Below, one piece after another: positions 17,562 to 60,614 of a DNA stretch of 64,000 nucleotides. Location of the stretch: positions 83,329,895 through 83,393,894 of the forward strand of contig CM056995.1 of NCBI GenBank assembly GCA_029891345.1. The letters are read 5' to 3'. The stretch's first letter is position 1, and each line of letters starts with the position of its first letter. A model generated the notes under the pieces. That model was not told the DNA's origin. It was given only the letters and a program-made list of their open reading frames with translations, and ran no database searches. Source of the stretch: Dryococelus australis (Eukaryota; Arthropoda; Insecta; Phasmatodea; Phasmatidae). A program made the position numbers and the translations under genes.

Positions 17562-18499
17562 CACTCTAAAAATTCGAATAAGTGGAAAACCACAGATTCG
17601 CAGTGAAATACAACCACTCGAATCAGTGAAAATGGCTCCACTTAGAATCAGTAGAAAATCACTGATTGTTAAAGTGAACAAATTTAACTGATTGAATTAG
17701 TGACGTGAAACAAGTTCACTGATTGAATAAGTGACAGCCAACTGCAGTGGCGAATTAAATATTTTTTTTTATTAATGCAGTCAAATAATTACGCGAAACA
17801 AACATATTTACGATATTTTACTGTTTATATTGCGCAATTTAGAGTAATTTGAACATAAACACACGGGATTGAACATAAACACACATCATTTCCTCTTCGA
17901 TTTTAGGATGTTAGCTTACCAACTGCGTTACCAAGCCAAATTGATCAATGTTAGAGGAAAATGTAAGTCTTACCGTTCTTATCGAAATTGTAAAGAATTA
18001 AATTGTCTGCCCTTACTTTTCGTTTTTGGTTTAATTGGTACTGTTAGGATTGTTAAATCGAATAGTATGAGTGCACTCTCTTCAGCACATTATATGCGGT
18101 TGAAACCTTAAAACAGCGCACTTGAAAGACGCAAAAGCGGAACGAAAGGCTGAATGTTCATATTACCTCTTAAAATGGTGTTTTGAAAGACGAAACACAT
18201 TTCAGAAAGTATTTTGTACTGGGTTTTATTAGTTTATTCGTTGTTGGTTCACTTGATACACGTCGTTTAACGGCCATTTTCACATGCTGTTTAACTGATC
18301 CATCGGGCAAAAAACAAACCACTGAAAAAACACTGAAAAAAATTACTGATGAATCAGTGGGAAATGTCACTGAATCAATAAGTGCAGGAAATCTGGCATT
18401 TTTGCACTGATTCATTAGTAAAATTCACTGAAGTGACTGTTGAATCAGTCAGATACTGTTGGCTGATTGAAACAGTGGAATTCTCACTGATTCAGATTA
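17562..18499 (+). mobile_element. Family B element, copy 1 (CACT-ended, iteron-rich)
   Basis: The left end is CACTCTAAAAATTCGAATAA. The first and last 200 bp are packed with variants of CACTGATTCA and its complement. Examples are CACTCGAATCAGTGAAAATG on the left and TCACTGAATCAATAAGTGC on the right. The right terminus is degraded near 18499. A better terminus-like string (GAATCAGGCATTAGAGTG) ends at 18572, so a small insertion may have split it. A tRNA-like module lies at about 17862-17938. Copies 2 and 3 are at 38327 and 59679. No coding region. Confidence 0.7.
17862..17938 (-). repeat. tRNA-like module inside family B copy 1
   Basis: On the minus strand, GGTAACGCAGTTGGTAAGC resembles an A box and TGTTCAATCCC resembles a B box about 55 bases downstream. 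The equivalent position is tRNA-like in both other B copies (39195, 59965). Confidence 0.5.
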
Positions 18500-18600
18500 A
18501 TGATTGGTGTTCTAGTTTTCCGCTCTGTCTGTTCAGCGCGATCGGCTTACGTTTGAATCAGGCATTAGAGTGTAATCAAATCCGCACGTGTTTACGTGTG

Positions 18601-18821
18601 ATGGCAGCAAGTACCGTGTAACAGGTTATGCCATGGTATCCTTCACACCTGCTCGCATGCAGGCTCGGATAGCAGGCCACGTATATAGCGCCCGCGTGCC
18701 ATGGTACATTATTCCGTACAAGATCCAGTGGAAGCTAGTACGAGACCTGCTATTCGAGCCTCCATGCAAGTAGCTATGGAGGTTTTTATGAAATAACCTG
18801 CCACACGATACTTGCTGCCAT
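18601..18821. mobile_element. Small foldback MITE
   Basis: The 221 bp element begins ATGGCAGCAAGTACCGTG. The complement of its end is ATGGCAGCAAGTATCGTG. Inverted similarity continues inward (GCATGCAGGCTCGGATAGCA against GCATGGAGGCTCGAATAGCA), so most of the element folds on itself. I could not fix a target duplication. Confidence 0.7.
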
Positions 18822-20404
18822 ACAAGAAAATGCGCTGACATTTGTTTCGGTTTTACTTCTACAACTGTGATTTCACGACGGATTTCATTCAGAGATTCTA
18901 CGAAGTTCATTCAGAGTAATTGTTTTTTTTTGTTATTATTGGGAATTCTTAAGTTAAATAAGCAAAGCGGTTTACTGTAATTGTCACATGACGTTGTTAT
19001 AGTGATAATAGACTACATTTTATATTGATTGTTTATTTAACTCTTATTTAATGCGCTTGGCGCTTATTCTCGGAACTAAGTACACTAAATGACAACTATC
19101 GTCACTAGCACCCTACAAACACCACCCTCTCTCTCTGATTACCTAAAATTTCCACCCTGTGGGAAACCTTCCAATGAAAACTGCACACGACGAATCACCA
19201 AAACGTCCACGTAAACGGCCTGCAGTTGGTTACATCTTCCACAGAAGAATCCACAACAGCGGCAATGCAAGCTCATTTTAAATCTTACAGGAAATCTTAC
19301 ATCATGGCGCAGGGCCTCGGCTTCCTCCAGAGCTGTACAGAACATTGAAACGTAGCACATGGGTTTTAGATCAGCGACTGGCATGCCGCGTTATGCTGTG
19401 GTCATGTTTGTGGTTGGCGAGACTGGGGTTCGGGGCAAATGTTCTGTGTTGTGTTCGTTATTCCTTGCCAACACTGGAGAGAAATGACTTTTGGCTAAAT
19501 GCCGTTCCACGATATTTCAACATCGAATGGCTCGTGCTGGCAGACAATAGCAGCTATATCAACTTTTTCGTAATCGTTATGGAAAAACACTGGTAGAAAG
19601 ATAAATGAACGCTCACTGATGATGTATTGTAAAAACGTGAGTTCATATTCCCTTAAGTATATAGGGAAAATAAAATACTTTTTAGCAGTAAATTTATGAT
19701 ATAAGTAAAGTAGTTTTCCTTAGTCGTCAAAGAAAAAGAATACTTGTAAAAAGCAATGGAAAATCCCATAGTGTGACTGGGAACATTCCGTCGATTGTAA
19801 GGAAAAAACATTCGATGAAAGTAAGGGGGAAACTATTAGAACAAAAATGTGTGTTGCTTAGTGCATAATCATTCTGCGCCAATAAAAATTTCGTCCGTAT
19901 TTTTCAACACATTAAGTCTATTTTACCCGAAAGCTGAGTGCGACCTATAGTGTTTTATTGAAATAAAAGGCCATATTATGTTCCTTTGTATCGTTAGAGA
20001 TAGATACCAAAATGAATAGCTGCTTTCAACGTTTACGTAAGTAATTTTAAAGTTATTTTAACATACTTCTTGCTTGCTAGATTACAAATTGTTGTTTTAC
20101 TGGTATTAATATGAAAATCTCTCGGAATAAATTGTTAGCAATAAATAAAAGTGTCATCATGAGACCTGCAAAACGTCTCAGAGTTCTACTTTCTGTAAGG
20201 AGCCAAATTGAATTACAATATAATATGTATAATACTTCCGTAACTATTTAAGCCGGAGACCTGTGGCAGTCACCCATTACGAACGCTTTCCTATTAAACA
20301 TAGCACAATCACTTAACCCTTTGTTTTCACATAAGTAAGATTCCTGTTGTACGTTAACGCATCACAGCTTACCACACCTCTGAAAGAACAACTGTATCTG
20401 GAAG
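18822..20404. other. AT-rich spacer, nothing recognised
   Basis: Overlapping short frames at 19139-19596 lie on both strands without recognisable domains. No repeat termini found. Confidence 0.35.
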
Positions 20405-20450
20405 GAACTTGAGCTGGCTACAGAGGAAGCTGGTTCGAGTCCAGTCTTAG
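20405..20450 (+). repeat. tRNA-like fragment
   Basis: GAGCTGGCTACAGAGGAAGC followed by TGGTTCGAGTCCAG gives a good B box and a poor A box. It is probably a SINE head remnant. Confidence 0.35.
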
Positions 20451-20609
20451 TATATTTGTTAGAATATGTTTTTTATGCCAGCTACAGTTTTATAGCTTCC
20501 AAATAAGTCGACACAAGGTGTATGTAAAAAATAATCAGCTTTTCGGGGTGTCAAGTTTTTCCTCGGCATCTAAGGAACAACAAAAGAGCGCCTAGGAAAT
20601 GCACATTTT

Positions 20610-20631
20610 ACAAAAAAAAAAAAAAAAAAAA
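20610..20631. repeat. Poly-A run
   Basis: About 20 A, with no identifiable retroelement body attached. Confidence 0.5.
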
Positions 20632-20789
20632 CACTTCAGGAAATAGACGTTGGGGACGTCGGCCTACTTTTCTGTATAATATCATGTCGCCATATTAACG
20701 ACGTGGAGGAAATAATCATAAAAGGTGACGTGTAAATGGAGAAACATAACACCCTAACATGACACTCTACTCGACTCCAAACCTCTCAT

Positions 20790-21660
20790 ACTCGTCGGCC
20801 TCTAGAGGCCAAAGCCTTCACGACCTTGGACAGAAGTAACAGATGATTGGGTCGGCTAAGCATCAAAGGAGTGTCACTCCATACGTCCTGGTGGATGCTC
20901 AAAACAGGCAAACGTGCATGAGTTGCCAACGAATAGGTTCGCTGCCAGGCCACGGAGCGCGTCCTTCCATCACTTACGGAGGCAGCATGAGTGATCAGAG
21001 ACGCCCTCCAGGGTCAGGCTGGAAGGTGTAAAGATCGCCTCGAGTGTGCCGTCGGTTTGCAGAGGACGGGGGGAAACAACCTTGAACCATTAGTGGATAA
21101 TACTGGGCTCGAGTCCCAAGAGCCATTTTTTGCCGGGAATTTTTTTGCAATGAAGAGGCAGTTAGCAGCAGACTGGGCAAGGGGTCGGTCACTGTTTTTT
21201 GTTGTCCGCCCGTCGCCTGACCCGCGGCCCTACAAAGTATCCTATGAGACGACCGGAGACGAGTCAGTGGACGACTAACAGGTGGAGCCGACTTTTTTTT
21301 CTTCCTATCCTTCCGCCGCTCCAGAAATAATGAGGTCTGAAAACGTTGCTGTGGTTTGTTTTTCGCTCTATTCCCCCCACGCGGCATCGGCGGCGAGGGA
21401 TAATGAGGATGGAGCAAAACCAGTTGGCCAGCGCCTAATCGGCGGCCAGCCCGTCTCCCTGGCCTCTTCGAGCGTACATCGCCTGCCTGGCTCGGCGATC
21501 GACGAGTCGCCGTCTCCAACTCCGGTGTCGTCCTCGACCTCGCCCGTGGGAACACCTGGCGGCCACGTTTCGCACGTGGGTCCAGTAGGAATGTGAGCGA
21601 GAATCGCGCCCCAGTCCACGTGCGGGACACGTGCCACTAGAGCATACGGGGTTGTTTTCA
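20790..21660. promoter_or_regulatory. CpG-rich block, possible regulatory DNA or exon
   Basis: This is a long GC-rich, CpG-rich island in AT-rich surroundings. It holds E-box words (ACAGGTGG at about 21280, CCACGTGC near 21617). A tRNA B-box-like string (GGGCTCGAGTCCC) lies at about 21106. A 211-codon minus frame (20995-21630) is arginine-rich with no domain, as expected of a shadow frame in GC-rich DNA. A candidate plus-strand exon is listed separately. Confidence 0.25.
21325..21592 (+). CDS. Candidate internal exon, unidentified Ser/Pro-rich protein
   Basis: A pyrimidine tract (CTTCCTATCCTTCCGCCGCT) ends in CCAG at 21321-21324, which resembles a splice acceptor. An open frame runs 88 codons to a GTGAGC donor-like site at 21593. 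The frame is GC-rich at third positions in its second half. It ends in a Ser/Pro/Gly-rich stretch (ESPSPTPVSSSTSPVGTPGG) of the kind seen in disordered parts of transcription factors. I recognise no domain. GC-rich DNA gives such frames by chance and the opposite strand is also open, so this is tentative. It is not an intact gene: start and stop would lie in other exons. Confidence 0.18.
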
Positions 21661-21769
21661 TTCAAGTTCCCTGCATTCCTGAACTGCTTTAAGGGCGGTG
21701 GCCACGGTAAAAGGTTTTATTTTATATTTTTACCACTGTTCGACTCGTAGATATTATTAGTGACTAGCT

Positions 21770-21985
21770 GTTACCCGCGGCTTAAACCGCATGCAAAATT
21801 CATATGTTGTATATTCCCTAAGAAACTGTTCGTTCTTCCGGAATGAAAAATACCTTATGTGCTAATCCAGAATATAATCGATCCCTGTACCAAATTTCAT
21901 CCAAAACCGCCGAGTCGTTATGATGTGATTGAGAAACAAACATACAAACTTTCGCATTTATAATATTAAGAGGATTAGGATATTA
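21770..21985 (+). repeat. Insect-wide interspersed repeat, degraded
   Basis: The stretch contains CTAGCTGTTACCCGCGGCTT near the start, CCCTGTACCAAATTTCATCC in the middle and TTTCGCATTTATAATATTAA near the end. From memory this matches a repeat common in many insect genomes. The class (LINE or SINE tail) cannot be decided here. It has no coding capacity. Confidence 0.5.
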
Positions 21986-24550
21986 TGATTACCCTCTCCT
22001 CTCCCAAAAAAAAAATTCAGCGCATAGTTTTGGCATAAATATATATTAAAATCACAATTTTAATGTTTTAGAAATGTACTAATAATTAAAACTAACTTAC
22101 GTGCTTCGTGCTGAGTACGAGCGTAGCAATACTTGTGGAAATGTGGCCGTGTGCATTTGCGAATAAGGGCGGTGCTTTGTACCTGTTCAACACAATGCTC
22201 ACCCCTCCAGCACCACCCAGAACCAATCACCAATGGGGTATATTGGGAGCACTACTTGCTCTTATTTTACCTACACTTATGGGATCCTGCAGACTTTATC
22301 AGGCCTCACGGCTTCCCCGAGAAATATTGCACAGAAACGGGCCGTCCTGTTACTCATAACCTTAAGACTTCAACCTTCCTCGAGGGAAGTCCATTCCGTT
22401 CTATAATGGTTCCAGTCCAGCTCGGAAAATTTCTATCAAAGCTGGGATTCTCAGATCAACACCTAATAATGTCACGTCATGGCCACTGCTACCTCAAACA
22501 CCTGAATCACACTCCTGTTCCCGTCATCTTGAGTCAGTGTGATTATGTCATATTCAGTTGGTGATTAAGTCTCAGTTGGGAATTACTTGTCACCATGGTT
22601 AAATCGTCCAGTTGGACCACTGGAGAAAACCATATACAGGTCCACCTGGTCGACTTAGGTGACAGATGGTCACACCTACGATGAAAGGCGGGAAGTGAAG
22701 CCTTTCCTCATCGATAGTGCAATCGAGGTGCGGTAAGGCCTAGTGGCTAGAACGTCATGTAAAAATAACAAAAGGCATAGTCACAGAATGTGATAATGGT
22801 ATAGAAATGATCTTGGGCAGTTGCCACCGCCGCGCTAGGGTTCCCATCAAGCCGCCTCCACACAACATACATTCGTGTCACCTCAACGTTATGTCATGTG
22901 TAATTTTACACTATACTGTCAGCATATTCACTTATGCACTGAAATGGCGCAATGACTGCGTTCGTGGCTCCAATACGATGTCAAAGAAAGAATTGCAACA
23001 TCATGCATTTATCACACTGTAAAAACAATAGCCGTGTTTTTTTTTACCATCACCACAGAGCGGCGGTCGAAAGCTCTCAGCTATAGGCATATACATTTTC
23101 CAGGCCAACTGTATCATGAATAAGAGAAACAATGATTAAAAGAAGCGTCTAGGCATTCAACCTACCTCAGTAATCTAATTCAGAGAGCGAACTAAACGCT
23201 TGCATAAGTTGCCAAAGAAGTGGTATAACTGTGACAAGAATAAATCTAACAGTGGTGTTTACAATATCTTTTTTATCCTGTATAAGAGTGTTCTACTGAA
23301 TGTGGGTACTGACATGACACGCCATTGTGTTCCACTTACTATAACTTTCACCACGTGGTGTGTTAAAAGTTTCACAGTTTCAGTTCGTAAGCATTTCCCA
23401 AGGGCCCGCAATTTTTCTCAACAAAACGGTTGCTTAGCGGTAGCGAGCAAGAAATCCGACCTTTAGAACTAACGAAAACTGCCACATCTGAGCTAACTAG
23501 CAGCACGCACCCGGATGATAACTAGTTTCAGCAGCGATGAGTTCCCGTCAGCGCTTTATTTGGTAATTCTGTGCATGTTTGCATCATGAAAAAATCACTC
23601 CGTTCCAAAAAGAAATCCTCTTCTTTCCATAGTGATAACCTTAGTGGGTTCGCATACAGGCGATTGTCGTGAAGATCATTAAATTGTATACAAATTGAGA
23701 TGTAACATAACTGAAACAATATGACGATACAGCAATCACCAAGACCATTCATATGAAATATTAACAATTTTCCTCATAAAAAGTTTCTTTTAAAGAAATT
23801 TTTACACAATTTATGTTACCATTTTATAAAACACTGTTTCAATACGTTTATGTTCCATAGGACCGTATTTCGCACATGACTGTAAAATAGCTTATTAGGA
23901 AGCCATAATTTAAATAGTTATTAACCGAGAATGTTATATAAAGATTTGTTTTACAAAATGAAAATTATAAACGTGTATTCAAAATTAGCAACTACTAGTT
24001 ACAAGTCTGCTGTTAAGCATAACTGTTAGGCTTATTTCATATTAACGCTACTTTATATGCTTCTCATACATGCAATTATACTTATTAATGAATGATAATT
24101 TTTGTGTTGCTGAATTTAAGAAAACTGAAGGTATCTCGTGTAAGGACTGAGATATGTAGATGTTTAATTCAGTTGTTGGGAGGTTGCCTGCATTGAAACT
24201 TCATTAGGGTGGTCAAAGCTTTCGCAATAATTATCAAAACAAGTTTGACGGGTTTCTCTACCAAAACGTACATAAATAATTAGAAAAGTTTTCCTGATGT
24301 TTACGTAACTTTAGCAACAACCGAACTCGAATTATCTACCTGTCGTTTGCAAAAGACGGAGAAGTTTAGAATACATAATATTCTACATAAACTGAATATC
24401 ACAGTAAATTACTAAACATTCAAGTAAAATAATGTTCGAGATTATTATAAAGAAATAAATACACGTCTGCCAGATGTGTGCTAAAACATGTAACATCAGT
24501 AAGTCCTGTTAAAATTCTAAGTAATTTGTACTGTAACTAAAATGCGTATA
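21986..24550. other. Long AT-rich spacer, few landmarks
   Basis: A 143-codon frame at 22133-22564 has no recognisable domain and overlaps a second open frame. A lone CACTGTAAAAACAATAGCC at 23014 resembles a C/D-type terminus without a visible partner. Nothing else is supportable. Confidence 0.35.
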
Positions 24551-24551
24551 G

Positions 24552-24554
<3 letters not shown>

Positions 24555-24634: not shown

Positions 24635-24636
<2 letters not shown>

Positions 24637-25638: not shown

Positions 25639-25639
25639 A

Positions 25640-27400: not shown

Positions 27401-27411
27401 GAAATGAGACC

Positions 27412-28325: not shown

Positions 28326-28590
28326 CACTGTAAAATTTTTTTCTGGTAAACTTCCTAAGCTGTAATGGAAGTTTTTAACCTATTCACTGTATGGAAATAA
28401 TACCATACATCAAGCTGCAGATATATGAATGTTTACTATACAAAGTTGGGAACTTTCCAATGAATTTGACTGTTTCCCGAGAAAACGTAAGAACCCTACA
28501 AGGAATGTATAGGGGAAAACATTACCATTCCTACTTTCTCACTAAGCGTATACACTGGCATGGAACATTTCCGAATAATTTATTAGTGCG
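28326..28590 (+). mobile_element. Family C MITE, copy 2
   Basis: The 265 bp element starts CACTGTAAAATTTTTTTCTG. It shares GGTAAACTTCCTAAGCTG and TTTCTCACTAAGCGTATAC with the other copies and ends TTCCGAATAATTTATTAG. TA flanks it on both sides (28324-28325, 28591-28592). Confidence 0.75.
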
Positions 28591-29968: not shown

Positions 29969-30176
29969 TTTACCTACACTGTAAAAAAATTTTCTGGTAA
30001 ACTTCCTAAACTGTAATGGAAGTTTTTAACCTATACAGAGTATTGTAATAATATCATGCAACAAGCTGCAGATATAGGGATGTTTAGCATCGCCACTATA
30101 CAAAGTTAGGAACTTCCCTATGCATTTGACTGTTTCCTGAGAAAATTTGGGAACGGTACAATGAATGTATAGGGGA

Positions 30177-30700
30177 AATAAAATAAATGTAAAAAAAAAA
30201 CTTTTCAACCCAACCTTTTATTAATAAATGCACTAAAAAGAGACAAATAATGATAATAGTTACACTATTTGTAGAACTTGTAAGATGTGGTCGAACAGCC
30301 GTAATAAACTTGACTACAAATTAATTTGTTTGTATCAATTTATATTTAGTATATAAAGGCTTGGCGCGAAAAGTCAAGAGACTTACGCACGATATGTGCT
30401 TTCAATGCTTACGCAAATGTGATATACGTTCTATATAGTGAATAATTTAAGAGCCTTACGCAAGATATATGCTTACTATGCTTACGCAAATGAGGTATAC
30501 GTTCTATATTGCGCCAATATTTTATACACTAAATATACATTGATACAAACATATTAATTTGTAGTAAAGTTTATTAAGGCTGTTCGACCACATCTTACAA
30601 GTTCTACAAATTGTGTAACTATTATTATTTTTCTTTTTAGTGCATTTCAAAATAAACGGTTGGTTTTAAAAGTTTTTTTTTTACATTAATTTTATTTTTA
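30177..30700. mobile_element. Foldback element FB5 with tandem repeat in its loop
   Basis: The left arm is about 30177-30365 and includes GATGTGGTCGAACAGCC and AGTATATAAAGGCTTGGCGC. It pairs with the right arm, about 30512-30700, whose complement includes GATGTGGTCGAACAGCC and AGTGTATAAAATATTGGCGC. The loop holds two units of about 72 bp sharing TGCTTACGCAAATG and ATACGTTCTATAT. Confidence 0.8.
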
Positions 30701-31186
30701 ACTTTTTAGTCTCCAACCATGTGTTTGTTTCACGAATATGGCTTCCCTTGCTAATAATGATCCCCATGATGTATCATGATCGACCAGTAGTTCGCTTTCA
30801 TTCCGATACGCGACATAGTGTAGGAGCAAACTATAATAATAGTTTTCAGAAAGACATTGCCGCTCAAAAATAGGGCACGCGCACAACAGCAGTGACACTT
30901 ATAATCTCCATTTAACTGTTATTCTATTCTGTAAAACAAACGCGATACGACGTTTACTGCATATAGTTGTAAGAGTTCCTATGGCCACCTTCCGGCTCCA
31001 TCATCAGATCAGATCAGTGGTACCTTCACATTGTAAGCTATTGTCATCGGAACTACACAAGTATGCGAAATTTCAGCTCAATTGGCTAATGGGATGTGGT
31101 TTAAAATAGACTTGCAAGATTTAACCCGAACGTACCAACAAACAAACAAACTAACTAACAAGGCAAGTTAAATAAAAGCTTGTAAA
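30701..31186 (+). mobile_element. LINE 3' fragment (RTE-like tail)
   Basis: From about 30984 the sequence reads TTCCGGCTCCATCATCAGATC, in part, then GGTACCTTCACATTGTAAGC and GAAATTTCAGCTCAATTGG. It ends in AACAAACAAACTAACTAACA. This matches 33487-33585 closely. From memory it resembles the 3' tail of RTE-type LINEs. No reverse transcriptase is present, and 30701-30980 is assigned to the same insertion only by position. Confidence 0.5.
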
Positions 31187-31256
31187 ATTACCATTCCTGC
31201 TTTCTCACTAAGCGTATACACTGGTATGGTAATTTTCCGAATAATTTCTTAGAGTT

Positions 31257-38326: not shown

Positions 38327-38504
38327 CACTCTTAAATTCGAATGAGTGGAAATCGACTGATTCGCAGTGAAATTCAACTACTCGAATCGGTGAAAATGGC
38401 TAGACTTAGAATCTGTGGAAACCCACAGGTTCACTCAGTGAAACAATTTCACTGATCGAATTAGTGGCAGACAACTGCGTGCGGCGAACTACATATTGTT
38501 TTCG

Positions 38505-39105
38505 ACGTGAATACGTCTTTAAATTTGCGAACGTAGTGGGAGGCAATCCAGAAAATCCGATGATAATAACAAAATCGGGGGATACAGTTTGGCGTAGCAG
38601 CTACATTCAAAATTCCAAAATTCAATTACACCACTCGAGTGCCAAAGGATCAAAGAATATGTTACGTTGAGTGAGGACTGCGAAGCAACCCAAGGAGGGG
38701 GGGGGGGGGTGTGTGCAATTTTGAGTTCTTTTTGCCGCGTCTCATAACTTCCGCGTAGTATAACTTTTGACTAGGAGAAGCTAAGATTGCGTGTAGAAAA
38801 ACATCTGTGTGGCGTGGTTATAGTGAAATTGTATGCGTTTAATGTAAAAAAAAAATTAAGAAAACTTAACACAATGTTGGCCTATACTCGTCAAAAAGCC
38901 GAGTCGAAATACAGAAATCATACACGGTTGGAAAGAGCATCTCAAAAGCATACCAGTGACACCCATGAAACTGCGTATGATCCAGTGAAGCGGTGCCCGG
39001 ACGTAAAAAAAAACATCGAGGCGTCCGAGCGCGTCAACGTATACGTATTCACGCAAAACAAACGGCCGTGTCCCCAACACAGCCACACCCCATTTTTATA
39101 GACTT
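38505..39105. mobile_element. Insertion of unknown type inside family B copy 2
   Basis: The stretch is absent from B copies 1 and 3. Left context GCGTGCGGCGAACTACATAT and right context GGCAAACCATTACGAGAAAT are adjacent in those copies. It holds a G-run (about 38697-38710) and a 104-codon lysine/arginine-rich frame (38787-39101) with no recognisable domain. I cannot place its ends exactly. Confidence 0.5.
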
Positions 39106-39194
39106 TAGGCAAACCATTACGAGAAATAAACATTTTTCCGATCGTCGCTGTTTATATTGTGCTATTTAATATTATGTAATAAAAAAAGTATTAA

Positions 39195-39255
39195 AATGTT
39201 GAGCGGTGTCTAGGATTCGAACCCACAGCACATCCGCTCCTAGACAATTACCTTT
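39195..39255 (-). repeat. tRNA-like module inside family B copy 2
   Basis: On the minus strand, GTAATTGTCTAGGAGCGG is followed by GTGGGTTCGAATCCTAG, which holds a perfect B box. The position corresponds to 17862 and 59965 in the other copies. Confidence 0.55.
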
Positions 39256-39429
39256 CCATTTTTTTTGATCGACTACATTGGCCGATAGAAGTTCCGTTGG
39301 ACATAGCGTGTGTGACGTTTTGACGTTTGACAGTGTATGTGTGTGTGTATTGCGCAGTTTCGAGCTCAAGTAGACCGACTTGTTGACAAATTCACAGTAT
39401 GCATGTGCGCTACATACGAGCTGAGGATC

Positions 39430-39512
39430 TGCTGCGGAGTAACCGGGGCGCGAGCTCCCGACCCTGTGACCACAAGTCGGCCACTCTGCCCCTCAGCTAT
39501 GAGGGCACAGCC
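39430..39512 (-). repeat. tRNA-derived SINE head
   Basis: On the minus strand, CATAGCTGAGGGGCAGAGTG resembles an A box. GGTCGGGAGCTCGCGCCCCG stands where a B box would be. It is part of the second extra block in B copy 2. Confidence 0.4.
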
Positions 39513-40088
39513 GAATTACCTAGCCAATGTTAACATCAAAGCGGAAATTATAAGTATTATGAACGTTATGAAAATTTTGTATAGCTTTAAATGGTATGTC
39601 AATTTTTTTTATTGGTAACATTTGGATTATAAAAACGAATAGTAGGTACGCATGAATGCATTTACCTAACCACATTTAATGCAGTTTGATATTTCAAAAT
39701 GAATGCAATGATGATACGTGGAAACGAAATGAAAGAGGTAAAAACGGAATTAAAGATTGAATGTTCATGTTGCCTCGTAAAATGGTATTATGAAAGACGA
39801 AACTCATATTTGAAAACCAAAATAATGGGTTATATTAATTTGCGTTGTTATTTCACTTGATACGGGTTTTCTAACTGATCCATCAGTCAAAAAGCAAATC
39901 ATTGAAAAACAGAAAATGAATTAGTTGATGAATAAGTGGAAAATGTCACTGAAACAAACAGTGAAGGAGAATTGGCATTTTTTCACTAAAATATCAGTTA
40001 AATTGACTGAAGTGGCTGCTGAATAACAAGATGAACTGATTTAAACAGTGAAATTCTCACTGAATTCTCACTGATTCAGATTTAGAGT

Positions 40089-40369
40089 GCATTTTTTTTG
40101 CATAACTATGAGAAGTTTAACTTAAAATCTCTTGATTAATACAAATGTTTCAAAAATCTATTTTAACACAAAGTTTAATTTCAGCTAGCGAGTTTATTGA
40201 AGTCACGGGAGCGTCACGTTGAAGTTTCTTTGAAATCTGGCACGTGATTCACTTGCGGCAAGGGTTTAACTTATGGCTATTCTGAGTTTAAATTTTGTCT
40301 AAAAATTAAAATTGAAATACAGGCAAACCGCATAACAAATTTTCAAAAAAAAATACTCCAAGACGTCCT
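40089..40369. other. AT-rich spacer, nothing recognised
   Basis: No supportable feature. Confidence 0.4.
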
Positions 40370-41380
40370 CACTGAGAAAAAGGTTTTTGTTGAATCAAAC
40401 AAAGTTCGTTTGGCGCACACAGTGAAATATTTTATCCTTAGTTGGTTGCCCCGAACAAATATTTGGTTGATGCAACCACTGCCGTAGAAGACAGGTCTGG
40501 ACACTCGCCTAACTAACAATGTTAGAGAGTCGACGGCCTTAGTGAAGCATTTAGTTCATGAAGTGGCCGCAAATGCGCTGTACCAAACTAGCACTATTAG
40601 CATTGCTGGTATAGGGATAACACCATAGAGATATGAACGTCATTTTTCTATTTTAAGAGAAAGTTGTAATTCCCCTCCCTATGCTTGCCATGTCAAACAG
40701 CACTACTTTGGTAGCAGCGCTCTGTGGTTGGGTTCATGAACTACATGGATCAATAAAGCGGTCAACTTTTCAAGTTAGTGTCCAGACTTGTTTTCTAGGG
40801 CCGTGGATGCAACTAAACACTTGTTTGGCTCTAGGTATATTAAACCGTTTCGGAAGTCGAGCCGGAAATCGAACCGAGGTCATGTGAGCGGGAAAACTAG
40901 GCCTGAGAAACCTTAGCGGAAGTGACTACTGGTCAAGTCTAGGTGTTATTTAAGTACATATATTCAAATACTGGACAACATGTGCAAATAAAGATTTACA
41001 ACTTCAATTTTTAGTTTCCTCTTGAAATAGTTATAATTAGGATGTTTATACCATTACGAAGCTTCGGTGAATGCACTAACCAACACTGTCACTATCCTAA
41101 CTATGGCGAAACACAGAAACAAATCTCTTGAGTTGTATTTTCAAACGAAGGCAATCTAATGAGTGGCCAAACATAAATACACAGTCGATTCAACAAAATA
41201 TTTTGTTGACAGCAAAATTTCTTTTATTTATGCAAACGTGTAGGGCTATTTGGTTAGACGAACAAAATTAATTTTGTTGCTTTTCACGTTTTGTCAACTC
41301 AACAAATTATTTTCTTGGGGCAACTAAATATATTTTCGACCCCTATGAAAACAAATATTTTGTTGGCAGTTCTCTCAGTT
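40370..41380 (+). mobile_element. Family H element (CACT-ended, AACAAAATATTTTGTT motifs)
   Basis: The left end is CACTGAGAAAAAGGTTTTTG. The complement of the right end is AACTGAGAGAACTGCC. Subterminal DNA repeats a self-complementary motif: TCAACAAAATATTTTGTTGA at about 41192, GAACAAAATTAATTTTGTTG at about 41261 and AAACAAATATTTTGTTGG at about 41350. Partial forms lie near 40385 and 40454. A tRNA B-box-like string (minus strand GGTTCGATTTCCGGC) lies at about 40860. No coding region is recognised. Confidence 0.6.
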
Positions 41381-47948: not shown

Positions 47949-50207
47949 GGTGAGAGTTGCCTATATCGTACCACTTTTTACATTTGCAATTTTATCTGTT
48001 TAAAATGAAAAAATACACGGTTTTACGAATTAGTATCAAAAAGTATGACTATTCATGGGTACATTTATGTGGGTTACATTTCAAAATGTAGCATCGGGGA
48101 AGAAATAAAGAACTTTTCGTAACAGACTGCAACTGGTACGATGTAAGAAACTGGTGTACTTAATAATACCCCCTATGACCTAAATCGTACCACAACGTTA
48201 TAAATTAAACCAAATGAGAGAACAAACAAGACAGCATGTAATAACACATACGATTATTGTAGTATTTATATACTAATAAAGTTTAATTTTTTTTTTCTAG
48301 TAAATGCAAGAAATATTAAATTATGTACAGGCTACACAAACAAAATGTTTCAGTTCTGACTTAACACCCGCACAACTCTCATGAACCCAGGATGTGCACA
48401 CTATACACTAAACCATATCTTTCAAAAAAGTTTCTTCACATACAGAACAATACCAGTCGTCACGTTGTAAGACACTTTCTATGTGGATCGGAATATCATG
48501 CTGTAATGAAGTGGATGACTGGTGTACATTGTGATCTAGGCCTTGATTTCTTCCTGCAGATGTAGAATGTTTCTTCGTTGTAGGTCCGTTAGTCTTTCTC
48601 TTCTTAATACTGGGCTGTGATAATTGTAGGTCATATGGCATGTCCTTTGCGATTTTCATTTTTAACTCTTTTACTTTTGCCTGTGTCACTTGCAACGCCT
48701 TCGCCAACTCCAAATCGTTTTTTGTATGGACTGCTTGTCAAAACACGTGCCCGTTGGGCCTTTCCTAACATACATCTTTTGTTGGGTCTAGGAATCAGTG
48801 AAAGTGATTCAATAGACACGCTGAGATTACAAGAAGTGGTCTGTGTTACATTAGGGCCAGTTGCATCACTTGGTTTTTCAACCAAAAGGACATTGTTTTC
48901 ATCTGAGTTAGGTGACTCATTAGTGGCATTGTCAGTGGGCCTGGAAGATGCACACAGATCAGCATCTTCATTGACTGGTGTAGGATCATCTGTTTGCTTT
49001 AGGTAGTCGGCTGAACGTTTGATCCTGACGCGCTTGTGCAACACACCACTGTCATGTTTACACCTCTTTCTCCACTAGAGACTGAACCCACCTGGCGTTT
49101 TGCTTTGTTAGCTAAAACCTTTTGGCATTTGTTTTGAACAGTGTACTAACGCCTGTTTCATCCACATCAAATAGGCGGGTCGCATCGATATTGTTTTCAT
49201 CAATGACTTGCTTTAATACGTCGAAAAACTCACCAACATGTTCCCTATTGAGCCCTCTTGCTAGAGCCATGGATGTTGCTTCTGGTTAACGTAATGCCAA
49301 CTCTTTATGACGAACTCTGAAAGCGTAAAACCACTTTTTACCCGCCATTTGAGTATCTCGATTAAAGTTATGTGAAATGTGTTGTGCTTTGCTATCTGAT
49401 ATGCCAGATTGCGTACATCGTTAATCGTGAATCCAAAAAGTAGTTCTTCCAATTTTAAAATATGTTCTACACGTTGATTTTCTATTTCAAATGGTAAGGT
49501 AGTAGTCCATCCAAGCGCCTTCGTACCACCGTTAGCAATTACGTTTCTACAGTCCAAGTGACCCTTTAGCGTTGGTTTTGTAATGCCGTACTGGCGGCAG
49601 CGCTCGTTGAACCCCATGTCCCCATTTCTGTACGCTGTCAGAGCCCTTTCCATGTCTGATTCACTCCAGGTACTATATTTTCGCCATTCTATAACACACA
49701 ATTAACACGTGTGTTACCTGTGTTTATTTAAAATTTATTTAATTGATGCAAATAAATTGCAAATATAGAGCTTCAAATAATATGGTATCCCAATTCGTAC
49801 CGGTACGAATTAGAAACCCCACCCGTGGTACGATTTAGGAAACTGCGAACAACTTCCACTCTTTACGAAATTCCTAACCTAAAACAGGTGCCTCGATACA
49901 ATGCGATCAGCCGTTACGTTCAATATTACTTACACCACAATGATAACTGCATGAAATCCAATAACACTTACATTGAAGTGCTGTATTATCTTACGTATGG
50001 AGTAGAAAAACTACATCAGCAAACACTCAAACAATATAACTGTAATAAAAACGCAACACGTGCTTACACTGACTAGCTATTTTCAAGGACTGCTCAATAT
50101 ATCTAGTAGTTCAAGTATTCACCGTGAGAGCACTCCACTAGTCCTGCTTTATAGAAAACCAGTCGTGGTACGATTTAGGTGGTTGTACGATTTCGGCGCC
50201 GTTCCCC
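47949..50207 (-). mobile_element. pogo/Tigger-like DNA transposon, internally deleted
   Basis: The element is 2259 bp. The left end reads GGTGAGAGTTGCCTATATCG and the complement of the right end reads GGGGAACGGCGCCGAAATCG. About 18 of the first 26 bases match, and TA flanks both sides (47947-47948, 50208-50209), as expected for the Tc1/mariner-pogo group. The motif GGTACGATTTAGG and variants recur at both ends. Inside lies a minus-strand transposase pseudogene without most of its DDE core, so the copy cannot move itself. Confidence 0.8.
48408..49701 (-). pseudogene. Broken pogo/Tigger-like DDE transposase
   Basis: The start chosen is at 49701. The N-terminus (TWSESDMERALTAYRNGDMG, residues about 10-30) followed by YGITKPTLKGHL is a Psq-type helix-turn-helix of the pogo/jerky/Tigger group. 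Next come ELLFGFTINDVRNLAYQIAK, a frameshift near 49366, then MAGKKWFYAFRVRHKEL with a TAA stop at 49286-49288. FDVDETGVST follows, with the first catalytic Asp at 49160-49162. A second frameshift lies near 49140. SSGERGVNMTVVCCTSASG follows. The frame then ends at about 48999, where the rest of the DDE core should be. The C-terminal tail is present in two further frames (48631-49044, 48408-48713) and ends in a Cys-rich WYCSVCEE. Family members usually have about 200 more residues in the core. It is clearly non-functional. Confidence 0.85.
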
Positions 50208-50209
50208 TA

Positions 50210-50713
50210 CTAGCCATCACACGCACGCTTTTACATGTTTATGCATGTGTCGATAAAAAAAATTTGCGTTTGTTAAACATTTTAATAATCATGTTAATTT
50301 ACCATTGCTTTTTTTTTTTAGCAAGGAATGTAGTGTGCAATCCGATAGAATTTAGTGTCGGAAACGTCAAAACTAACACAACTGACAGGTACACTTGCGG
50401 TAATGTCTTGCAAAAGTATCGCAATTAAATGTGGGAACAGGCGTACATCTTGGCCAAGGTTGCCTCGCTCAAATCCTGCACAGACTAAAAAGATCTGAAA
50501 AGTATTTTTAATGCAGACATTTGCGCGAATCCACTATTACAAGTTCAGGAAAGGTTTCAACTGATGATAGGCGAATGTCACTACTGACAATCATGCTTGT
50601 CAATACTGACAGCTGGGCAAGTGAGGTGCGACAGTAGGGGATAAATCAATCTTGAAGTAGTTTGAAAATACTGTCTTATTTTTCAATTTAAATTCTGAAG
50701 TGTATATTCATAT
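50210..50713. other. Spacer, nothing recognised
   Basis: No supportable feature. Confidence 0.4.
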
Positions 50714-53599: not shown

Positions 53600-54016
53600 G
53601 GCTGTCACGGTAAAATGGGTACGTTTGAAAGCCCTGCTTGAGATCTACTTGTATGCACGTTGTGTATTCTTCCGCCTTATGTAAAATTAACGTTCCCTTG
53701 GGCCTCATCACATTGTTCAAGCGTCGGTCAAGCGGAACTGTAAAATTGTTAGAAAAGGAAAATCTCTCAAATCTGCTCATTTGTACACTTCGATGTATTA
53801 GAAAAATACGGAAGGCGAAATTAATAATTTAAGTCATTATAAATAGTTACCCAACACTTTTTATTCGCCGTTAAGATATGGAACTACTTTCCCTCCATCG
53901 TTACCAACTTTACTGAGCGCATGCCACTCAGTGCGCCCGTAAAAATATATGCAGGCAAGGGCAGAGACTTTTTTCTGAGGTTGATTTCAAAAGTACTCAT
54001 TTGATTGTGAACAGCC
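53600..54016 (+). mobile_element. Family A MITE
   Basis: The left end is GGCTGTCACGGTAAAATGGG and the right end is the complement of AGGCTGTTCACAATCAAATG. The body follows the 8053 copy throughout (TTCTTCCGCCTTATG, GCGTCGGTCAAGCGG, CCATCGTTACCAACTTTACTG in part). Confidence 0.85.
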
Positions 54017-54514
54017 TTTTATCAGATTATTACTGATGAGTATATTATAAGTGACAGCAGTGAGAAATGTATTAAATGGAGAGGATCTGCACAGAAATCA
54101 AAGCCCCTCATGCCCTTCTTCAGAAACATTGTAAATGTGATGGAACGTTGTCATTGCACTTGATAGCATTCAGGCTAACATCACATAGGTTATTATTTAA
54201 ATAACGCGAGACAGGATTTAAAAAATGTACGATTTGGTAAATGAAATTCTATTTTGTAGTATTGTACACTCCATAATTACAATATAATCACTCCTTAATT
54301 ACAATATATTTAAACAAAAACTTACGTGACGTTATCCTGAATACTACTCATTGTAGCGACAATGTTAGGTCACACAATGTTTGTGAAGATAGGGAGGTGG
54401 GTTTTTAAATTCTTTTTGCGAATCAACTGAACTGTTTCACATGCTCCTTGTGTAGTCCATTTTCAATGTTTTAAAACTGATTTTCTGGAAATTATTTGTG
54501 GTTTTTCTACACTC
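54017..54514. other. AT-rich spacer, nothing recognised
   Basis: No supportable feature. Confidence 0.4.
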
Positions 54515-54722
54515 TATTGCTATTGGCTGCTCTCTGCTTGAGAAGACATTTCATATTTGACCGGGCCACTCGGAATTCGGCAACATCGGCATAGCTCCTA
54601 CGTGATTCGTGTGCAGACAGTTAACACGTGTCAAAAAGTAATTCAGCCAATCAAGATAGGTAAACGACTCTACTGTGTTTTAAAATATAACTTGTTCTTG
54701 AAATCTTTTTTGCGAATATTTC
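54515..54722 (-). mobile_element. Truncated copy of the 3520 hAT-like MITE
   Basis: In inverse orientation it shares GGCTGCTCTCTGCTTGAGAA, CACTCGGAATTCGGCAAC, ACACGTG and TTTTAAAATATAACTTG with 3520-3813. Both TAG-type ends are missing, so it is a remnant. Confidence 0.7.
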
Positions 54723-55555
54723 CGCCAGGAACGCAGATCGCAGTTGTTATCAATGTAACTACCAAATGCACGATCTCCTGAAGTTATTGGTGGAGTTAAC
54801 CGAACCTACCGAAACCAATACTAACCCGAGAATGTTGTTTGCATTTTAAGTGACCAGTGTAAACTACACGACGTGGTCGCTAGTCTGGCTCCGAACTGGC
54901 CAATCACAGCGTCCCTGTTCTCAAGTACACCAAGAATTACTCTCAACACTAGATTATTCTCGTGCTTGTTATCATAACAGTACGCGTCTCACAGTTTTCC
55001 ATGAATGAATAAATAAATAGGCTGATATTTTTAAAGATAAGTAAATAAAAAAATCCGCTGAAAAACGCAAAGCCAAAAAAAAAAAAAGTTTTGAACTCAG
55101 GCCTTGCTCGAATTCAGTTATATATTGGGTATTTGCATCGTTGCATACTTTACTTGCCCTTGGCACCCAAACTTGATGAATTCGGACAGGCAGTTTTGCT
55201 GGCTTCGTCAACAACTATTGTTAGCCAACTAATCACTTTTAATGAATGTGTATTCCTACGAAGAAATTGATAGTAAATTGCCGAAATTAATAGGGTTAAT
55301 CGAGGATTAAATAATATTTCAATTTGATTTACGTAACGTTTATTGTCTTGCTGATTGCACGTGAGTTTGCAATTTTGATTGCTTGTTCCTTACCTTTTGT
55401 AGATTATGAACATAAGCAAAATTAGAATTTATTCTTTAGAATTTTTTTAAGGTTCACCTGGCGATTACTATTACCTGAGTTCAAAATGCTATGCTACGAA
55501 GTAGTAATGTTGCCCTACTAACATCAAAATAAAATGATTAAGTCAAAATCATTTG
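54723..55555. other. AT-rich spacer, nothing recognised
   Basis: A short A-run lies at about 55075-55087. No gene is seen. Confidence 0.4.
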
Positions 55556-55599
55556 TAACCAACAAATTACTTCTCAAAATGGTGGCATATATATCGCAA

Positions 55600-55733
55600 A
55601 TACGGGACAAGTATACATCTTCGTGCACTCGTATACTTGCATACTTCATTTACAATTCGGACAGCGCCTATGATGTCACATCCTAAGACAGGTACGCACA
55701 AGTATGTACTTAAGGCGAATTCGGACACAGCCT
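55600..55733. repeat. Small repeat with GTGTCCGAATTCGCC end
   Basis: The complement of the right end, AGGCTGTGTCCGAATTCGCC, is a typical MITE terminus. TTCGGACAGCGCC lies inside at about 55655. The left boundary is not clear. Confidence 0.3.
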
Positions 55734-56159
55734 GAGTATCTATAAAGATTATGAGTATTATAGTGGCGTACAGCATTCAGTTTCAACTTGACAGCAGTAA
55801 CTGACAGCGAAATATTTTTGTAACTTATGCAGCATAAAGCTTCCTTATAGAAACATGTTCATAGTTTAATCCCTCTTCATTCGTATATTAGCATTGGATT
55901 CATTACTGCAGTTTTCTCGTGTGGTCACAAAAACTAGATTGCCGACCGTCAACTAGAGAGTTTTTCACTGCCTTTTTTCTCAATATTTTTTATGTTTATT
56001 TATAATTTTATATAGGTACACGAACTTAGAAATTATCCTGCACCCAATAAAGCAGAAAGCCGGTAACGTCACAGTATTTCCACAGCATATTTTTGAAACT
56101 AACGCTTACCTTGTTCTTTCCAGTTTAATGAGGGTGAGGTAGGTAACCACCACGAAGGT
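55734..56159. other. Spacer, nothing recognised
   Basis: No supportable feature. Confidence 0.4.
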
Positions 56160-56600
56160 ACACCATCATTTCAAAAGTATCCGGAATTTAAACTTGCGCG
56201 AAGTGTGTGCAGAACGGGACGAGTCTGTGGTATCGCGGTGAAAACTTGATGGTGCGCGGAGCCAAGCCTCGGCAGGCCGCGGGACAATAACACCACCGGA
56301 CCGGAATGCTTTACCTCCACATCCAGGTTTTTTCCCCTCCGGGGCCCCCCCCCCTCCACTTTCCCCCCTCGACCACCCTCCTACAAGTCGACAGGCTGCC
56401 TGCCACCTTCTCCCCTTCACGCACAGCGGACCGGCCGCGGACAAAGAAGAAAGAGGTCCTGTCCCTTCACCCCTACACCCCCCCCCCCCCCAGCAAGAAG
56501 TAGGCGACCCGGGAAGGTAAGCGCGCGGAACACATCGGCACTGCCGCAACACACCCCTCTCTTGACCCAACAAGACAGGCTTTCCACCAGTCTTGCCAAC
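56160..56600. promoter_or_regulatory. CpG-rich block with C-runs
   Basis: The block is GC-rich with C-runs at about 56345-56354 and 56478-56492. The 135-codon minus frame is Gly/Arg-rich and has no domain. Function is unknown. Confidence 0.15.
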
Positions 56601-56634
56601 TCAGTTGATTTTCCTCCAGATTGAGAAGATTTTA

Positions 56635-56829
56635 CACTGGAAAAAAAAATTGCGGCGTCCACAAACTGGTTTGTTGGTATTTATTCTGCCAAATTATTTT
56701 AGTTCTAACCACTAAACATTTATGCCACTGAAAATGTACGTATTTTATGGTGGCTACACGAAATAATTTCGCAGGTTGAATACCTACCAACAAAACGTTT
56801 TGTGGCCGCTACAAAGTATTTTCCCGGTG
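56635..56829. mobile_element. Family I element (CACT-ended, short)
   Basis: The 195 bp element has left end CACTGGAAAAAAAAATTGCG and complement of right end CACCGGGAAAATACTTTG. Both ends then show GCGGC-like and CCACAAA motifs. The interior has CCAACAAAACGTTTTGTGG and TGGTTTGTTGG, self-complementary words recalling family H. Confidence 0.6.
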
Positions 56830-57975
56830 TGCTGGGGTTGACACAATCAGAAAAAAAAACTTAACGGCAATAAGAAGTACGCAGTAGACATCCCCACCAC
56901 GATGAATTTGTACAAACCTAGTCCAACACAACGGAGTTGCTACTGCTTAGTGCAGTGGAAATATTTTGGGAAGTCTCGAGTTAAGCCAATCACTGAAAAG
57001 CATACATAAGAAATTTTTTTTTTTTTAATTTATCTAAATTAAGCACTTCAACGTTAATACATTGACCTGCTTCGAATCAACAACCGCCGAAAACCATAAT
57101 ACGAATAAATTAACAACTGGTTCCATTTTGATCGAATACAGCTCAAGCAAATATTGCGTTTTTATTGGCCAAACATGTGCAGTAACATCGCTATTGTGTT
57201 ACTTAGATTTTGGAAGCCTGCCGCTTACAGCTTTATGCTTACTGCCAAAGTTTTTAATTGCGCTAACCCCTACCTGGTGGGACAAATTATTATTTAATAG
57301 TTAGTGGATATGCTAGCAGATTTTTTTAAGGGCGTGACAGACAATTTTCTGGAAGGAAAAAGTATCTTATCTGCAAAATATTTATTAAAAATGTGTAGGC
57401 TTATATGGTGAAGCGATAAAAATTTTTTAGCGTACTTCTGAAGTTATTATTCATGAACTGATGGCATTACATAATTACGCATATTTTTCACGAAAATAAA
57501 ATAGTTTTAAAACTACTTTAAACTATCATATCACGCTGAATTCAAAATATGGGTACTATTGTTATTCTAGAGATGAAAAAGGTTATTTTCGTAACCTAGT
57601 GGATATTGGTGGATTTCTAACGCGTGGCCTAGTGGAATTCTCTGCGTACATGTTGGCAGTACAGGTTGCCACGTTCACGACCACCCGATAGTGAGTGGCG
57701 ATAACACTCGTGCTTACAACTAACATTACCTTACGTCACCTGCACGTCCTTGTTTCGCCTCTCAGTTACATCTGCCTTGTCTGCAATCCGCTCAGCACAC
57801 TTCCCGATGGGATATACCGCGACGGAACACGCCACGAACTCGGAATTTCTAGTGCACTGGCTGCAGCTGGTATGTCAATAAAGGGTAATTACGTTTTACT
57901 GCCACCAGTAGCTCATTTTATTCGTGTATCTATGTGTATATATACGTAATGACTAGACATAAAACACACAATGAC
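56830..57975. other. Spacer, nothing recognised
   Basis: Frames at 57062-57304 and 57695-57949 lack recognisable domains. Confidence 0.35.
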
Positions 57976-58035
57976 TAGAGATGATGGTTTATCGCGGGAA
58001 AAGTTGACTGTTGGCTAGGATTCAGCGTACTGTAC
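57976..58035 (+). mobile_element. hAT-like MITE end (15669 type)
   Basis: TAGAGATGATGGTTTATCGC, then GACTGTTGGCTAGGATTCAG and GTACTGTACGCAC, match one end of the 15669 MITE. The sequence then passes into repeat X. Confidence 0.7.
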
Positions 58036-58245
58036 GCACATTATAATTTATAAATTAAATACAGGGGAAAATTCAATTTAACGAAAAATGAGCTACTTTC
58101 ATGTTAACAGAGGTACAAAACGCTTGTGATACATGGCATATTTAGGAAATAATTGAACAAGTCATTCATGGGGTGATTTTAGAAAGGTTTAGTTCAAAAG
58201 GTGTGAAGAAACAGCGAATAGACCATATAGGAAATACGGAAACTT
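58036..58245 (+). repeat. Dispersed repeat X, copy 2
   Basis: Homologous to 15426-15600 with about 60 extra bases in the middle. It may be the interior of a longer hAT element whose left end is at 57976. Confidence 0.5.
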
Positions 58246-58255
58246 CCAGTATATA

Positions 58256-59435
58256 CACTGTGAAAAAAAATTGTGTAATTCTACACTATATGTATGTGGC
58301 AGCCGTGTCTCCACTGACGGCGGTATAATTTTACACCTACATATGTCAATGTTATTTTACTCTACGTCTAAGTAAATTTAGCCTACAAATTAGTAAAATA
58401 ACATATAATTTATGCAACTAAATTTACATAGAATGGTGTAAAATTACTATTACTACATAGCACAAAATAAACTGCAACATTCGTGTATTTTTTCTCCACG
58501 TGAAGTAAATTTACAAAGAAATCGCAATTGTAATTTCACCACTGTTATCTATATTTCCTCACTGAAAAAGAAAAGTGAAATCGCAGATTCTCTGTAATTG
58601 TAATCACACAATTTCTGTACATTTCCCCCTGTTTTACTAAGCAATTTTACCGTCATATGTTCTTATACAACTGTGTCATGTTAGTTTACATACTTGGTAT
58701 GTGTCTTTTTTTTTATAACTTTCGTGCTATTTTACTCCGTTTTGTAACTTGGTAGTTTAACAGAGTTATAAAAAGATATCTCCAAAATGTGGATAACAAT
58801 GGACTTTAGATATAGAATAGGTAGTTATATACACAAACCAGCATATTTCATCAGAGGGGGTAAAGATTCCCTTTTTAACACTTAAAAGTAGTTAGATATA
58901 GTTGTACTCCCTGACGCTAGATCGCATGTTTTAAACAAATGCTTGCAGTTATATTTAGATTCACAGGAACATTAATGTAAAATTACAAATACTGTACTCT
59001 TTTTAGTAAATTACACATACAAGTGTAAAAGTACCGAAAAATTGCACGCGTTAATTTACACTCACAGATACTCCAGAATGGAAGTTTACACACACACGGT
59101 CATTGTAAAATTACACAATGAAGATGTACAACTATACTGACATTGGGTGTTCATACAACGACAATGTAGCAGTAAAAATATTTAACCGAAGATCTTAGTA
59201 CAATGAGTAGTTGCATTTTTACGCATACTTCAAAATGTCTAAATTTACACCAACATTGTATCTATTAAGATATACATTCATGTATTTTCACCAAAGACAT
59301 GTAGTACTCTCTGGATGATAAAGAACATTTGTGAAAAATTACACGTACTGTAGTAGTTTCAAATTAAACAAACAAAATGTAAAATATAACCAAGAATTTG
59401 AACATTGTGTAAATATACACTTATTTTTTACAGTG
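58256..59435. mobile_element. Family D element (CACT-ended, GTAAAWTTAC motifs)
   Basis: The 1180 bp element has termini CACTGTGAAAAAAAATTGTG and, as complement, CACTGTAAAAAATAAGTGTA. It is flanked by TA (58254-58255, 59436-59437). The whole body is sprinkled with GTAAATTTAC, TGTAAAATTAC and TGTAATTCTACAC variants in both orientations. No open frame of interest is present. Confidence 0.75.
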
Positions 59436-59549
59436 TAGTACATGTACGATAGCACGCTGGCTTCCAGCGTACGGCTAGTGATGTCAACATGTCTTGTTTC
59501 GTACACATAAAAGCATAAATTCGCACAATAATCGACACATTTACTTTCC

Positions 59550-59625
59550 TAAAAATCGTGGACGATGCATGAACAAAGTGAGACGGCCTACGGCAAAAAT
59601 TTTTATCTTACATTTAGCGAAAGTA
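59550..59625 (-). mobile_element. Family A fragment (weak)
   Basis: GGACGATGCATGAACAAAGT, then ATTTTTATCTTACATTTAGC, resemble the family A interior. No termini. Confidence 0.4.
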
Positions 59626-59678
59626 AACAAAATTAAAACACAAGATCATAAATACAAGAACAGCTCGCGCAACGACTG

Positions 59679-60614
59679 CACTCTAAATACGAATCGGTGG
59701 AAAATCATTGATTCTCAGTGAAATTCAACTACTCGAATAATTGAAAATGGCTCCACTTAGAATAACTGGAAAACCACTGGTTGTTTCAGTAAAATATTTT
59801 CACTGATTGAGTAAGTGACGGGCAACAGCGTGCGGAAAATTAACATTGGTTTTATTGAATTCAGCCAAATCATTACGAAAAATAAACATATTTCCGACGG
59901 GTAGTCACTATTTATATAGCTCAATTTACCTTAATTTAAAAAAGGTAAACAATTTTGGCAGGGTGCTCAGGAGTGAACCCCCACCATCCCCACCCTACGT
60001 TTAGACCATTACCAACTGAGCCACCAAGCTAATGCTGACTACGAAAGGGGAAATTTTATGTATTATTCTTTATGTGAAGTATGTAGTTTTAACTTGTGCG
60101 ACCTTTCTTTTCGTTTTTAGTTTAATTGGTAACATTTTGAATTGTTAAATCAAATAGTAAGCCTACTTATGTATGAATGCACTCACTTCATCACGTTTAA
60201 ATGCCGTTTAAACCTTCGAAACCGAGCGCCATCATGGTTACGTGAAAACAAACTGAAAGACGTAATAACGGAGTGAAAGACTGAATGTTCATGTTGCCTC
60301 ATAAAATGGTATCATGAAAGATGAAACTCAAAAATTTGAAAGCACATTTATTGGTTTTATTAGTTTATGACTTATTTTCATTTGATACGCATTGTTTAAC
60401 TGAGCCATCAGTCAAAAACTAAATCAATGGAAAACAGTGAATAAGAAATGGTTGATGAACCAGTGGAAAATGTCACTGAATCAATAAGCGAAGGAAAACA
60501 GGCATTTTTTTTTCACAAATATATCAGTTAAATTCACTGAAGTGACTGTTGAAACAGTCAGGCAGTATTAACTTATTTAAAAAGTGAAATTCTCACTGAT
60601 TCAGATTTTGAGTG
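59679..60614 (+). mobile_element. Family B element, copy 3 (cleanest)
   Basis: The 936 bp element has left end CACTCTAAATACGAATCGGT and complement of right end CACTCAAAATCTGAATCAGT. Subterminal words CTCAGTGAAATTCAACTACT, TTTCACTGATTGAGTAAGTG and GTCACTGAATCAATAAG are the B signature. A tRNA-like module lies at 59965-60035. There is no coding region. Confidence 0.8.
59965..60035 (-). repeat. tRNA-like module inside family B copy 3
   Basis: On the minus strand, TGGTGGCTCAGTTGGTAATG contains a near-consensus A box. GGGGGTTCACTCCTGAGC is B-box-like about 40 bases on. It is the best A box of the three B copies. Confidence 0.55.

Follow-up and report, generated by a model that had tools for sequence, protein, structure and literature searches.

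Do DNA families that share their outermost ends and carry different internal repeats belong to one superfamily of mobile elements? This question is raised by a 64,000-nucleotide stretch of the genome of the stick insect Dryococelus australis (assembly GCA_029891345.1, contig CM056995.1; C3:83329895-83393894), referred to here as the window. The initial annotation of the window described four families, B, D, H and I, each with a CACT(C/G) terminus, an A-rich run and many copies of one short palindromic word that differs by family, and proposed that they form a single superfamily. This observation is partly confirmed here; the ends and the word arrays are real, and the layouts of B, H, I, D and a fifth family, C, are corrected. 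Families B, I and D, and probably also H and C, are best explained as DNA transposons of the CACTA/En-Spm (CMC) kind that move by cut and paste and are non-autonomous, a reading to which we assign a probability of roughly 0.55.

The D. australis assembly comprises 3.42 Gb, with an N50 of 262.27 Mb and 17 main scaffolds; according to its published description, repeats make up 63.29% of the genome and the majority of them, 1.56 Gb, are unclassifiable (PMC10268593). The genome searched here contained 3,415,067,245 bases.

A shared outer terminus is followed by a family-specific word

CACT(C/G) is present at all six positions at which it had been annotated, i.e., 17562, 38327 and 59679 (family B), 58256 (D), 40370 (H) and 56635 (I). 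In the window, CACTGTAAAAA with at most one mismatch was found 14 times, compared to 3.3 expected, and none of 100 shuffles reached this number. Genomic copies gave the precise terminus of B as CACTCTAAATYYGAATCAGTG and that of I as CACTG, an A-rich run and then TATTTTGTGG; for I, the terminus is given as read in individual copies because the A-rich start of the I consensus is poorly aligned. Copies of B and I end in CACT(C/G)..(C/G)AGTG, which corresponds to the CA..TG ends (CACTA or a close variant) of CMC-type elements. Genome-wide, the B terminus pattern was found at 11,998 places (at most one mismatch), which are places rather than elements as one element can count twice, and the reversed control was found at none.

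The terminus consists of two parts, a common outer part and, starting some 12-20 bases inside, the family word, which recurs in both orientations in B, D, H and I. This follows from the recurrence, in the body of the element, of the terminal 45 bp taken from position 10 onward. By summed matches, none of 200 shuffles reached the recurrence observed at either end of the B consensus, at either end of D or at the right end of H; recurrence was weak at the left end of H (9/200) and at the two ends of I (7 and 9 of 200). Family-specific subterminal motif arrays in both orientations, as are typical of CMC elements, are found in B, D, the right end of H and I, and not in C.

The layout of the word arrays differs between families

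Word arrays were counted as direct and inverted pairs of 8-mers, and each count was compared with 300 dinucleotide-preserving shuffles and with 300 random pieces from the same window. The B consensus was built from 29 sequences, namely 28 genomic loci (including the window copy at 17562, which is L001) and the window copy at 59679; it is 1001 bp long, and its two ends read CACTCTAAATTCGAATCAGTG and CACTCTAAATCTGAATCAGTG. The word GAATCAGTG/CACTGATTC matches it 21 times with at most two mismatches, some matches overlapping; ten of these lie in positions 13-170 and eleven in positions 791-989, and the interior of about 600 bp contains no match. A version of B that is only 199 bp long (L051) consists of hardly more than two arrays placed back to back. 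With a mean mismatch to the consensus of 0.118, the sample of 29 sequences is not very recent.

All three B copies in the window lie on the plus strand. The copy at 17562..18505, which was aligned with the genomic copies and whose right terminus is decayed and its end approximate, shows a word excess, as no shuffle reached its direct or inverted pairs (random pieces: 0 and 15, direct and inverted, respectively). The excess is weak in the other two. At 38327..40089, a long variant with degenerate arrays recognized by BLAST to other B copies and flanked by CG and CA, 7 shuffles reached the direct and 49 the inverted pairs (random pieces: 87 and 184); at 59679..60614, flanked by TG and TA, the corresponding numbers were 3 and 141 (33 and 133).

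Family D is represented by the element at 58256..59435 (plus strand), which carries the word GTGTAAATT/GTAAATTTAC in its outer parts and has no word match between about 396 and 722 of its 1180 positions; none of the shuffles reached its direct or inverted pairs, and random pieces did so in 0 and 11 cases. The family H element (40370..41380, plus strand, right end approximate) carries its word CAACAAAATATTTTGTTG mostly at the right end. It also contains a nested repeated element of roughly 333 bp at 40474..40806 (plus strand, limits approximate), without which H proper is about 670 bp long. With the nested insertion included in the count, 1 and 0 shuffles and 38 and 9 random pieces reached the direct and inverted pairs of H. 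In a genome search in which the best 40 of 6,493 first-look candidates were scored, all 71 matches besides H itself fell in positions 90-454 of the query, i.e., in the nested part, the long ones at 83-87% identity. In 200 kb of random genome (L029-L048), the H matches were one to the nested element (L032) and one homologous terminus at L046:787-740; B, C, D and I gave no match there at E 1e-4.

In family I, words are present through most of the element. The window copy (56635..56829, plus strand, flanked by TA and TG) is a hairpin of TTTTGTGG/CCACAAAA-like words, and the 210-bp consensus of 19 sequences, when folded with RNA parameters, forms a single, almost uninterrupted hairpin in which TTTTGTGG and CCACAAAA are abundant. 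Only inverted pairs are in clear excess, as all 300 shuffles reached the direct pairs and 4 the inverted pairs (random pieces: 300 and 3). The copies come from a genome search that gave 68 matches from the best 40 of 69 candidates, of which 20 loci were fetched. Given the sizes of B (about 1 kb) and I (about 210 bp) and the many places with a B terminus, both families have the properties of miniature inverted-repeat transposable elements, with coding capacity judged from the list of open reading frames of the window alone.

Family C, for which similar ends without an obvious iteron had been reported, indeed has the same kind of terminus and no clear word excess. It is found on the plus strand at 2156..2428, where no word array is present, at 28326..28588 and at 29977..31255. 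The last of these copies is interrupted at about 30180-31184 by roughly 1 kb of inserted DNA whose inverted arms measure 122 nt. For the elements counted as C1 and C2, all 300 shuffles reached the direct pairs, and 12 and 190, respectively, reached the inverted pairs.

A tRNA-like stretch was also observed in B, on the complementary strand of consensus positions ~308-386, with a box A (TAGCGCAGATGG) and a box B (AGTTCAATCCC) about 50 bp apart; it sits in the least conserved part of B, for example in the window copies at 17562 and 59679. ARAGORN called nothing at 95% scoring, and at 75% called this stretch together with four others at similarly low scores. When 20 of the 28 B loci were searched against Rfam, there were two matches, neither of which reached its gathering score.

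B and I are flanked by 2-bp target duplications

Flanks of B were compared in 54 rows, comprising 51 loci and the three window copies (the copy at 17562 being also L001), and both ends were recognizable in 36 of these rows (35 distinct copies). Identical 2-bp flanks were found in 23 of the 36, i.e., TA/TA in 16 rows, CA/CA in four and CG/CG, TT/TT and TG/TG in one each, and no row matched at 3, 4, 5, 6 or 8 bp. The seven non-TA matches compare to a mean of 1.7 in shuffles, and 0 of 2000 shuffles reached seven. For family I, 19 of the 20 fetched copies passed the end rule (L072 failed it despite TA/TA flanks), although the right ends of two of the 19, L090 and L091, seem to be internal. Identical 2-bp flanks were found in 14 of the 19 (TA 7, CA 3, TG 2, CG 1, TT 1) and 3-bp identity in none; here, too, seven matches were non-TA, compared to 1.2 by shuffling (0/5000 reached this number).

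When B and I are pooled, TA accounts for 23 of the 37 matched duplications (window background 0.08) and pyrimidine-purine steps account for 35 (background 0.25); the 14 non-TA duplications are CA, TG, CG and TT. The duplication is hence exactly 2 bp, within the 2-3 bp of the CMC group. Duplications longer than 2 bp were rejected for both families, as was an assignment to Chapaev/Chapaev3, for which 3-4 bp are reported in the text of PMC4079192, since no copy matched at 3 bp (0/36 for B and 0/19 for I). This 2-bp rule comes from genomic copies outside the window; in the window, TA/TA flanks were found in D and in the C element at 2156, one copy each.

Because copies of B and I are flanked by 2-bp duplications, they are inserted DNA. 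The proposal that the words are hairpin-forming replication signals finds no support here, and replication iterons were rejected as the main role of the words in B and I, given that such duplications mark inserted DNA. We favor the view that the words are putative protein-binding iterons. The comparison of ends and target duplications that had been suggested as a check on the superfamily was run for B and I and revealed no difference that would refute it; since these two families share CACT(C/G) ends and the duplication rule, a common superfamily is not refuted for them. D and the C element at 2156 agree with one copy each.

Comparison with known CACTA elements

The families fit a known transposon design rather than a wholly new kind. 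In plant CACTA/En-Spm elements (Tgmt*, Tgm1, Spm/En), a short conserved CACT-type terminus is followed by many direct and inverted copies of subterminal motifs that are capable of forming stem-loops, are held to bind TNPA-like proteins and differ between families of one species, and gene-less derivatives are moved in trans, a situation to which the stick-insect families can be likened (PMC2613891, as far as its text describes these systems). The plant elements differ in that they end in CACTA and that Tgmt* duplicates 3 bp, whereas the stick-insect families have CACTC or CACTG and 2 bp; no transposase was seen in the stick-insect families.

Precedents for the 2-bp duplication are found in descriptions of animal CACTA (TRC) elements, i.e., SmTRC1 of Schistosoma and elements of Tribolium and Aedes (PMC1636069), and of Spongebob (PMC4298943); the SmTRC1 paper does not use the word "subterminal" in its main text. 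CMC-NA_1 and CMC-NA_2 of wasps and polydnaviruses are likewise short and gene-less, with CAC..GTG termini and a 2-bp duplication, but no word arrays are mentioned in the text concerned, and these elements are set beside the stick-insect families by description only (PMC6004678). The fungal EnSpm-like elements ESTA/CNEST of the CMC group are described as having a 2-bp TA duplication (PMC12730594, PMC12810828); CNEST differs in its terminus, CACGG, and in that TA is reported, whereas the stick-insect families also use CA, TG, CG and TT. The combination of the plant layout and the animal 2-bp precedents leads us to take B, I, D and probably also H and C as CACTA-type non-autonomous elements. Among the titles and abstract openings listed in literature searches, none names these families in stick insects; subscription journals and Repbase, outside this coverage, may catalogue some of them.

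From the ends and duplications of B and I and from the word layout, we infer both the binding of the words and an enzyme of the CACTA class. The outermost CACTS and the A-rich run would be the site at which the core of the transposase cuts and joins, and the inner word would be bound by a protein that the transposon encodes, which could be TNPA-like or could be the transposase itself, through its own binding domain. Multiple copies of the word could gather this protein at the ends and bring the ends together, with the enzyme supplied in trans by an autonomous element. If the binding protein and its word change in step and the cutting site does not, the words would come to differ by family. More tentatively, one enzyme lineage could have passed through many DNA-binding specificities, with the cutting site held constant and the binding word swapped, and could represent in animals an undescribed branch with 2-bp pyrimidine-purine duplications; this is a possibility rather than an expectation. 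If true, the families would form a natural set of matched protein/word pairs, and any partners found would allow words and binding domains to be compared, indicating how transposons change DNA specificity. The CACTA reading itself would assign abundant repeats of a large insect genome to a class and would suggest the plant CACTA plan of fixed ends with family-specific binding arrays for an animal as well.

A number of observations weigh against an assignment to CACTA. The ends are not strictly CACTA, as the fifth base is C or G rather than A, and the animal CACTA termini described in PMC1636069 and PMC4298943 begin with CCC rather than CACT. The analysis found no CACTA-type transposase associated with such ends, a negative that has no genome-wide PF02992 (Transposase_21) result behind it, and with no autonomous partner found, the argument for a single superfamily is built on the ends, the duplication and the plan. 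The longest of three paired B elements fetched, L049 (2,226 bp), was rejected as such a partner; its extra length is, by eye, an insertion resembling a long interspersed nuclear element. Matching 2-bp flanks are absent from all three B copies of the window and from its I copy; H is flanked by CT and TA in the window, with a damaged right terminus; and D is known from one copy. Furthermore, 18 of the 54 B rows lacked a recognizable end pair and were left out, and the right end of L007, one of the four B rows with CA/CA, is doubtful. The arrays are less conspicuous against random window pieces than against shuffles; by the most frequent single word, the left end of H and both ends of I are not unusual (60, 76 and 76 of 200 shuffles); and C shows no terminus recurrence (57, 200, 200 and 200 of 200).

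Arrays alone also do not single out CACTA, because a pogo-like element in the window has them too. This element, which follows a like iteron plan although it belongs to another superfamily, contains a decayed transposase gene at about 47955-50215 on the minus strand (HTH_psq, E 1.6e-6), with a word array of GTGGTACGATTTAGG/CCTAAATCGTACCAC near both ends and a palindrome, AATTCGTACCGGTACGAATT. It raises the possibility that B, D, H, I and C are instead gene-less Tc1/mariner elements of the pogo type, their words serving a pogo-type helix-turn-helix as binding sites. The most frequent duplication in B and I is TA, in line with the TA preference of this group, and pogo-type DDE_1 genes are abundant in the genome (the best 150 of 8,242 candidates were scored). 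We nevertheless regard this origin as unlikely, since 14 of the 37 matched duplications are not TA and Tc1/mariner elements are described as duplicating TA (PMC10379824); in addition, the termini differ, the window pogo-like element not being CACT-ended as far as its ends are readable.

Somewhat less probable again is a separate, unnamed lineage, neither CACTA nor Tc1/mariner, that has CACTS ends and duplicates 2 bp, in pyrimidine-purine steps. In the text of the literature compared, no element uniting precisely these ends, this duplication spectrum and this word plan was encountered, and the large unclassifiable fraction of the genome would leave room for such a lineage, but every one of these features is closely matched in the CACTA/CMC group as described there. 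Independent family origins, with words that have no binding role and arise incidentally when hairpins form or templates are switched, would account for the nearly perfect long hairpin of I and for the same terminus without words in C, but are improbable given that the B word stands right behind the terminus on both sides with variable spacing and orientation, that the B interior is wordless and that B and I have a common duplication spectrum.

Other repeats in the window and the genome

A scan for word-rich sequence, from which L001 and L009-L028 were left out and of which seven stretches among the best 60 were read, identified tandem repeats and tRNA-like arrays and no new CACT family. ARAGORN found no tRNA in the window, and one reading frame of window positions 1-12000 gave no match in a Pfam scan. 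Arrays of ~40-bp units that look, on visual inspection, like the 5' half of a tRNA (GCAGTGGCTCAGTGGATAGA...) were seen at L033:2000-2540, L043:4830-5180 and L007:3110-3330, on two chromosomes (C1 twice and C7). Finally, a dispersed family, D4, with the core AGGCTGTTCACGGTAAA was observed at ten places in the window, from 4193 to 50711.

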